From Vulgatibacter incomptus (GTDB lineage Bacteria; Myxococcota; Myxococcia; Myxococcales; Vulgatibacteraceae), in contig NZ_CP012332.1 of NCBI RefSeq assembly GCF_001263175.1, positions 3,740,220 to 3,804,219 of the forward strand: a stretch of DNA of 64,000 nt, written 5' to 3'. How positions within the stretch are numbered: position 1 is the first letter of the stretch; the number at the start of each line of letters is the position of its first letter. Under the pieces are notes generated by a model. The model searched no databases and had not been told where the DNA came from. It was given only the letters and a program-made list of their open reading frames with translations. The position numbers were made by a program, and so were the translations under genes. Below, piece after piece: positions 25,814 through 29,975 of this stretch.

Positions 25814-26623
25814 TCAGGCCAATCGAACGGCGCCGGCGAGGGCGAGGATCTTCTCGCGCACGAGGGCGCGGGCGCTCTCGAGCTCCCGGTGGGTCGGCGG
25901 CGCGTACCCGAGGCAGAGGACGACGTCGTCCTCTGGCGCGGCGGACGCGCCCAGGGCCTCATATTCGATGGCGCGGGGGATGGGCTCGCCCATGTCGTCG
26001 CGGGCGAAGCGGCCGAAGACCGGTGCGTCGGCGGGACGGCCGAGCGCGGTCTCCTTGAGGCGCAGGAGCTCGCGCGCCGCTTCCAGGGCGGACGGGCTCG
26101 CCACGATCGCGTCGAGGTCGGCGGGGCCGCCGAGCTCGGCCTCCAGGAGCTTCACACTGCCGCGCACCAGCTCCACGTCCGTGATCACGAGGCCGTAGAG
26201 GTACCAATCGGGGCAGGCCGCGCGCACCAGGCGTGCCTGCGGCGCGTTCAGCCAGAGGAACGACGGGCACTCGAAGCTCGAGCAGGTCTTCGAGTCGTAG
26301 GCGCCGCAGTCGCGCAAGTCGACGCCGCCGGTGACGAGCGGATGGGCCATGCAGCCGACCCTCTTCTCCTCGTCGTCGAGGAAGCCGAGGAGGGGACAGA
26401 GCCGAACCGGATCGAAGAAGGGATCCTTGTCCCACCGCCGCAGGGATCGGGCGGCGTTCCGGTAGGCCTCCGCCTCCTTCGGCAGCGCGCGGATGGTCTC
26501 GGTGCGACGCCGGAGCGCCCGGGTCAGGGCGCCACGGGAGTGATCGCGAAAGTTGTAGAGGCCGCAACAGGCGCCACAGGACGCGCCGCCCCCGGGCTGG
26601 CAGAGGTGGAACGGGAGCGCCAC
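25814..26623 (-). CDS. Cysteine-cluster protein, YkgJ-like
   Basis: 269 residues starting with GTG at 26623, whose first base is the last base of the upstream archaemetzincin stop (TAGTG), so translation is coupled. Cys residues include FHLCQPGGGASCGACCG near residues 8-20, VRLCPLLG, VGCMAHP, DCGAYDSKTCSSFECPSF, arranged like a metal- or Fe-S-binding Cys cluster of the CxxCxxCC zinc-or-iron chelating families. The C-terminal half lacks Cys and looks helical. The role is unknown. Co-expression with an archaemetzincin homologue is the only functional hint. Confidence 0.65.
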   Translation of the reverse strand: MALPFHLCQPGGGASCGACCGLYNFRDHSRGALTRALRRRTETIRALPKEAEAYRNAARSLRRWDKDPFFDPVRLCPLLGFLDDEEKRVGCMAHPLVTGGVDLRDCGAYDSKTCSSFECPSFLWLNAPQARLVRAACPDWYLYGLVITDVELVRGSVKLLEAELGGPADLDAIVASPSALEAARELLRLKETALGRPADAPVFGRFARDDMGEPIPRAIEYEALGASAAPEDDVVLCLGYAPPTHRELESARALVREKILALAGAVRLA

Positions 26624-27201
26624 TAGATCTTGCCGCCCGCCGCCTGGAGGAGCTGGCACGGGCTGCAGAGCGCCGGATGCCGATGCTCGAGCTCGTCCGC
26701 GGAGCGGATCCCGGCCATCGCGCACCGGGTGTCGTCGCAGCTCCGGAGGCCAAGGGAGAGGCCGACCGCCCAGGCGGAGAGGGCGGACACCCGGCGTAGC
26801 AGGCGTCCCTCGTCGGCTACCCGCAGGCGGACGAGGCTGATCACGGCGGAGCGGAAGTCCCGATCGCCGTCGCCGAAGATGAAGTCCGCTTCCGGCTCGA
26901 AGAGATCCTGGTTGCCGATGGCGAGGAGCAGGTCTCGGCCGCGAACCGTCTGCCCCTGCCAGAGCTTGCGGAGGATCGAGGCGGCGTGGTGCTGGTTTCG
27001 GGAGGGGTTGAGGGCGTACTTCGGGCTCGCCAGCGCCGGGGCGATCGCGGTCGAGAAGCCGAAGGTCGCGCGGACCCCCGACGCCGCGGCGTCTAGGATC
27101 TTCCGGTGGACGTCGCCCAGGGCGACGATCCCGACCCGGGTGGAGACGGTGGGCTCGGGAGCAGGGCGGGCGGAGCCGATCAGCTCCGCCGCCCCGCCCA
27201 A
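26623..27201 (-). CDS. Archaemetzincin-family protein lacking the catalytic zinc site
   Basis: 192 residues if read from TTG 27201, the only start in frame after tRNA-Gln. The fold matches archaemetzincin (zinc metalloprotease): VGIVALGDV at the N-terminus, FGFSTAIAPALASPKYALNPSRNQ, and DLFEPEADFIFGDGD. The active site normally reads HExxHxxGxxHC. Here the aligned segment is WAVGLSLGLRSC, so all three zinc-binding His and the Glu are replaced. The four Cys of the second, structural zinc are kept: RSCDDTRCAM and LCSPCQ. The protein therefore looks like a pseudoenzyme. It is directly followed by a coupled Cys-cluster gene. Confidence 0.72.
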   Translation of the reverse strand: MGGAAELIGSARPAPEPTVSTRVGIVALGDVHRKILDAAASGVRATFGFSTAIAPALASPKYALNPSRNQHHAASILRKLWQGQTVRGRDLLLAIGNQDLFEPEADFIFGDGDRDFRSAVISLVRLRVADEGRLLRRVSALSAWAVGLSLGLRSCDDTRCAMAGIRSADELEHRHPALCSPCQLLQAAGGKI

Positions 27202-27206
27202 ATTGA

Positions 27207-27277
27207 CTGCGGTGGATGGATTCGAACCATCATTAAGAGATTCAAAGTCTCTTGTCCTACCCTTGGACGACACCGCA
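27207..27277 (-). tRNA. tRNA-Gln (anticodon TTG)
   Basis: The minus strand folds as a standard cloverleaf of 71 bases: acceptor stem TGCGGTG with CACCGCA, D stem GTCC/GGAC, anticodon stem AGAGA/TCTCT with loop CTTTGAA (anticodon TTG), and T stem GATGG/CCATC with loop TTCGAAT. The discriminator is G, as in tRNA-Gln. CCA is not encoded. It lies immediately upstream of the archaemetzincin homologue on the same strand. Confidence 0.95.
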
Positions 27278-27479
27278 ACAAGCCTCGCGATCTCGGCCAC
27301 GAGCCGCTCCCTCCGAACGACGACGGTGGCCGAAAGAGGCGGGTAGCTTGACCTGAGGGCGGTCCTCGGCGCAACCCCCAACCGCTCCCTTCCCCGGTCT
27401 TTCGAACGATCGATCGCGGAGGAGGAGGCGCCGGAGGCCGCACATTCGCGGCCCCCGGATGGTGCGCGCCCCAGAGCCG

Positions 27480-29975
<2,496 letters not shown>

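Follow-up and report, generated by a model that had tools for sequence, protein, structure and literature searches.

A non-proteolytic archaemetzincin-like protein of Vulgatibacter incomptus and its apparent link to tRNA-Gln(UUG)

Results and Discussion

Analysis of a 64,000-nucleotide stretch of the Vulgatibacter incomptus genome (positions 3,740,220 to 3,804,219 of NZ_CP012332.1, from here on the window) led to a minus-strand gene that, judging from alignments and a predicted structure, derives by orthologous descent from an archaemetzincin protease but is no longer proteolytic, with the fold and the Cys4 site kept and the catalytic zinc site gone. Taken as a whole, the explanation that we consider probable is that this descendant is a protein-binding adaptor, as we infer, and that its production is coupled to tRNA-Gln(UUG) through apparent translational read-through of the tRNA gene.

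An archaemetzincin fold without the catalytic residues

The archaemetzincin-fold domain is encoded at 26623-27201 of the minus strand, where the initial annotation had placed the whole gene. The open reading frame is present there, with WAVGLSLGLRSCDDTRCAM and LCSPCQ in its translation, but its true start was probably missed and would be the GTG at 27300, before the tRNA gene discussed below. The proposed fold is borne out by profile, sequence and structure comparisons. HMM searches match the protein to NCBIfam NF033824 (E=6.5e-32) and NF033823 (E=1.1e-26), and to Pfam M54 (PF07998) at E=1.2e-4 and 22.5 bits, just below the gathering cut-off of 24.4, while phmmer matches 2x7m (E=1.9e-11), aligning WAVGLSLGLRSC onto HELGHTFGLGHC of the active enzyme. 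The AlphaFold model of the 26623-27201 protein (pLDDT 90.4, pTM 0.84) places archaemetzincin crystal structures first when this predicted structure is used as a Foldseek query (2x7m, 3zvs, 3lmc and 4axq), with 2x7m as the top match (E=1.6e-14, TM 0.76/0.81).

The M54 archaemetzincin peptidases (AmzA, 2x7m, 3zvs) have the fold and the Cys4 site in common with the window protein, but carry HExxHxxGxxHC, a motif that the window protein is entirely without. In its place, at 26737-26772 (minus strand), translation and alignments give the degenerate WAVGLSLGLRSC, and all three catalytic His and the Glu are absent, as had been claimed. The structural cysteines (26656-26739, minus strand) follow the pattern CX4CXM...CXXC, and the alignment shows C156, C161, C180 and C183 (numbering of P0001), together with Met163, to be not only retained, as first reported, but invariant among relatives; zinc binding at this site is predicted. 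Metal-binding histidines elsewhere in the fold, the alternative raised at the outset, did not emerge, and a substitute zinc site was rejected: none of the five histidines (33, 72, 73, 175 and 177) lies within the motif, the sole conserved one, His73, is likewise conserved in relatives whose motif is intact, and the alignment shows no conserved new His. The suggested loss of peptidase activity is supported as far as sequence can tell.

Stepwise loss of the active site in an ortholog group

Relatives of the gene are widespread, with a match in 79 of the 99 nearest genomes. The order holds several archaemetzincin-derived groups: group A, which contains the window gene and forms one clade in the tree, group B, which is CarG, and a third group with intact motifs. 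All 20 group A members tested match NF033824 (Myxo_non_zincin; best E=3.8e-99). The window protein scores 110.7 bits against this model, below the curated cut-off of 250 bits, and, although an ortholog, is thus not classed as a member by the model's own threshold. Its orthology with the Myxococcaceae NF033824 proteins is supported by the tree and by the gyrB and tRNA-Gln neighbourhood. These proteins share with it the fold, the tRNA-Gln neighbour and the loss of catalytic residues, but they keep the first two His, whereas the window protein lost all three and the Glu, and the tRNA read-through proposed for the window locus was not seen in them.

The novelty implied by the initial annotation does not hold, given that NCBI already uses the name “non-proteolytic archaemetzincin-like protein” (NF033824) for the Myxococcaceae orthologs and that CarG has been studied too. 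Non-proteolytic archaemetzincin homologues are therefore already known, and what the window protein adds is the complete loss of the His and Glu residues. The open-access literature on pseudoenzyme archaemetzincins and on the Anaeromyxobacter archaemetzincin yielded no direct precedent. A Myxococcus-like locus, with tRNA-Gln and HQAGHLLGLSYC, also turned up in a database entry labelled Comamonas sp. KCTC 72670 (L212), probably through contamination or mislabelling.

The alignment of homologues around HExxH, a check proposed with the original claim, shows graded losses across group A. The motif is intact in some members (HELGHLLGLSHC, HEVGHLLGLSHC), only the Glu is lost in several lineages of the Anaeromyxobacter-like family f6 (HATGH, HGVGH, HAAGH, HQLGH), and the Glu and third His are lost in Myxococcaceae, including M. 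xanthus (HQAGHLLGLSYC). Family f2 reads DAVGQLLGLSHC, and the window's family, with VAVGKALGLREC and WAVGLSLGLRSC, has lost all catalytic residues. In a tree that excluded the motif columns but included outgroups, among them clade f17, the Glu changed at least seven times, the third His four times and the first two His four times; by this reconstruction the catalytic residues have been lost repeatedly within the clade. The result is a graded natural series in which one orthologous gene is kept while its active site is dismantled in a different order per lineage, so that the transition from enzyme to adaptor becomes testable.

The f17 clade belongs to another Myxococcota family (L083, L094, L124, L125 and L169) and reads HQLGLIRGLAHC, with Glu replaced by Gln and the second His by Leu. 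Judged by this motif, it is a further independent non-enzymatic archaemetzincin lineage.

Selection after catalytic loss, and the relation to CarG

Codon substitution rates, which had been suggested as a check, reveal constraint. Pairwise codon models give omega values of 0.055-0.13 in f6 pairs where both members lack the Glu and 0.055-0.083 in two Myxococcaceae pairs, compared with 0.055 in a pair with intact motifs. dS is saturated in some pairs, among them that of the window gene and the copy of its sister genome G001, for which omega=1 is rejected (LRT 77.6). The identity of these two copies by codon position is 0.58, 0.63 and 0.44, the first two positions lying above the third, and neither copy has an internal stop. 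Purifying selection continued after catalytic loss and the gene is maintained; its retention as a non-enzymatic protein, as first proposed, is supported by this selection and by the conserved relatives.

CarG, the paralogous precedent, is an archaemetzincin homologue without proteolytic activity and serves as a transcription cofactor that binds CarD (PMC4374960, PMC9304148, PMC3427221); its published motif is HQx2Hx2Ex2HC (PMC8156234), matched by the HQLGHLWELHHC of Myxococcaceae group B members, and CarD-CarG has already been reported in V. incomptus (PMC9304148). Like the window protein, CarG of the Myxococcus xanthus CarD-CarG complex is archaemetzincin-derived, non-proteolytic and in possession of the Cys4 site (PMC8156234, PMC4374960, PMC3427221). 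It differs in belonging to a clade distant from group A, in lying beside carD, in keeping the His residues and in binding two zincs, and it acts by protein binding, a property that the window protein may share by analogy. The CarG gene of the window genome itself follows, after 9 bases, a carD gene encoding the CarD_TRCF_RID and CarD_C domains. The window gene has no adjoining carD, falls outside the CarG clade and is without the HQxxHxxExxHC motif, and its identification as CarG was rejected by gene position and tree.

Two alternatives to a maintained adaptor with a role of its own bear on these data. Were the enzyme dispensable, the window copy could be a decaying pseudogene heading for loss, a reading that would suit the long branches of the window's family in the tree and the loss of zinc ligands from both archaemetzincin homologues of the window genome. 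We regard it as very improbable and reject it on the selection tests and the intact frames: the two family members have remained open at 42% amino-acid identity with the Cys4 and fold residues invariant, omega=1 is rejected, codon positions 1 and 2 are better conserved than position 3, and a complete fold is predicted at high confidence by AlphaFold. The outcome thus went against the decay without conservation in relatives that the initial annotation had held up as its counter-case. It is also improbable, though less so, that the window protein is strictly CarG-like, binding CarD or the related CdnL and acting at RNA polymerase. The status of CarG as a paralogous non-proteolytic archaemetzincin speaks for this, and the joint loss of zinc ligands from both paralogs in the window's family would fit a shared partner or constraint, but the real CarG is a separate gene of a distant clade beside carD, which the window gene does not adjoin.

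Some CarG sequences are themselves unusual. CarG keeps its three His in most other families, but that of the window's family has lost zinc ligands, reading HEMGALWELHSC in the window genome (L239 2957-3496; C1:2669956-2670492) and REIGRTWDLRSC in the sister genome (L238). By sequence, this is a parallel loss of zinc ligands in two archaemetzincin paralogs of the lineage. The CarG orthologs of L227 and L230, in turn, retain a Glu along with all three His (HEVGHLLGLRHC, HEVGHLWDLHHC) and could represent enzymes that are active or have reverted.

Linkage to tRNA-Gln(UUG)

The initial annotation, besides omitting the order-wide stepwise loss and the second homologue, CarG, with its damaged zinc site, passed over the linkage and overlap of the gene with a tRNA. 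This is tRNA-Gln(UUG), at 27205-27278 of the minus strand (ARAGORN; Rfam tRNA, 66.2 bits at 27207-27277), nested in the coding sequence that we propose. It is the sole UUG glutamine tRNA found in the window genome, the other tRNA-Gln being CUG. Of 91 group A loci from f6, the Myxococcaceae-like families and the window's family, 90 have a tRNA-Gln(UUG) immediately before the gene on its strand. No CarG locus and no canonical or other archaemetzincin locus has one there, and the linkage is absent in f2 and f3. It persists where gyrB no longer adjoins.

In the window, gyrB occupies 27480-29960 (minus strand), with recF, dnaN and dnaA upstream, and the order dnaA-dnaN-recF-gyrB-tRNA-Gln/archaemetzincin-like gene-cysteine protein is conserved in the window's family and f6. 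The last of these genes, at 25814-26623 (minus strand), encodes a cysteine-cluster protein (C..GGGASCGACC) without a match in Pfam or NCBIfam; its GTG start shares bases with the pseudoenzyme's stop codon (TAGTG), and it is a conserved neighbour in f6. A sigma-70 promoter scan found no promoter.

A proposed reading frame through the tRNA gene

The proposed full coding sequence, for a non-proteolytic archaemetzincin-like protein of 225 amino acids, runs from an inferred GTG start through tRNA-Gln(UUG) (26623-27300, minus strand), as indicated by the open frame, a Shine-Dalgarno sequence and the frame used in f6. The GTG (27298-27300) and the Shine-Dalgarno sequence GGAGGGAG (27307-27314) together span 27298-27314 of the minus strand, and the pairing energy (dG -9.7) is the best among 260 upstream positions. 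The window frame has the same position relative to the tRNA as that of f6, and its translation begins MAEIARLVAVSSKGRTRDFESLNDGSNPSTAVNLGG.

All 18 distinct f6 loci are in one frame relative to the tRNA, the distance taking seven values (91-115) that are all multiples of three apart, whereas in the control set of Myxococcaceae-like loci the frames are split 20/28/16. Between -60 and -4 relative to the tRNA, f6 has 30 start codons in this frame, while the other two frames have 4 and 5. In 14 of the 18 loci a start codon stands at exactly -17 (background 3.8%), with ATG, GTG and TTG interchanging; in three of the remaining four an in-frame start is placed at -14, -29 or -32, and in L006 no start is found close before the tRNA. 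That the -17 start codon is a general tRNA leader motif was rejected, since it occurs at 0 of 48 other f6 tRNAs. Conservation of the f6 spacer is at the level of codons (in-frame BLOSUM 2.19 versus a permuted mean of 1.26; 0 of 2000 permutations), part of the conserved block falling behind possible downstream starts in some members, and f6 ribosome sites are stronger than background, with a mean Shine-Dalgarno rank of 0.14, i.e. within the best 14% on average. Variation within the tRNA is biased to third positions, hardly above the bias of the control family, and the segment from start to tRNA comprises only about six codons. These comparative tests support translation through the tRNA in f6, and we infer the same for the window's species, in a family sampled by two genomes (the window's and its sister).

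The alternative is a conventional start, with the pseudoenzyme translated from the TTG at about 27201, or from another weak start, on a joint tRNA-mRNA transcript, and with the common frame of f6 reflecting coincidence or shared ancestry. Transcripts of this kind are known from E. coli, where the tRNA genes of thrU-tyrU-glyT-thrT-tufB are co-transcribed with a protein gene; as in the window, a tRNA gene lies directly upstream of the protein gene on one strand, but tufB starts after the tRNA, while the window frame appears to cross it. The Myxococcaceae genes have a conventional ATG start after the tRNA and that of the sister genome, outside the read-through frame, has a normal ATG there, so the read-through arrangement is not universal; in several f6 members, too, an ATG or GTG that could be the start follows the tRNA. 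Against this, the TTG at about 27201 has no ribosome site in front of it, in several f6 genomes (L005, L007, L008 and L011) the stretch from the tRNA to the domain's first strand contains no ATG, GTG or TTG, and the frame, start-codon and codon-conservation tests in f6 all point the other way. We hold the conventional start to be rather unlikely.

We lean slightly towards read-through: ribosomes in f6 and the window's species would follow the frame across a single-copy tRNA-Gln(UUG) gene that is itself intact. Translation would start upstream of the tRNA, and each transcript would either be processed to tRNA-Gln or be translated into a pseudoprotease carrying an N-terminal segment of some 24 tRNA-encoded residues. 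Since processing would remove the ribosome site, the level of the protein would be inverse to tRNA processing, rising when processing lags. The product may be a small adaptor that binds proteins through the former substrate groove and surface, much as the paralogous CarG binds CarD; of the binding or regulatory role first suggested, the non-enzymatic retention is supported and the binding remains an argument by analogy.

As the frame seems to start before tRNA-Gln(UUG) and to cross it, one stretch of DNA may serve as both tRNA and protein, and, if this is correct, the locus is a dual-use gene, its open reading frame enclosing a tRNA, and possibly a direct readout of tRNA maturation. Genome annotation as a rule avoids coding sequences over tRNA genes, and it could then miss starts that lie before them. 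The open-access literature searched held no direct precedent for open reading frames through tRNA genes.

In L066 and L068 the proposed start codon and the stop codon of the gene before it share bases, as TGATG. The upstream gene, which we take to be fabH from its C-terminus (GFTWGAALARW), may in these loci be followed by coupled translation, as the overlap suggests, into the tRNA-spanning reading frame.
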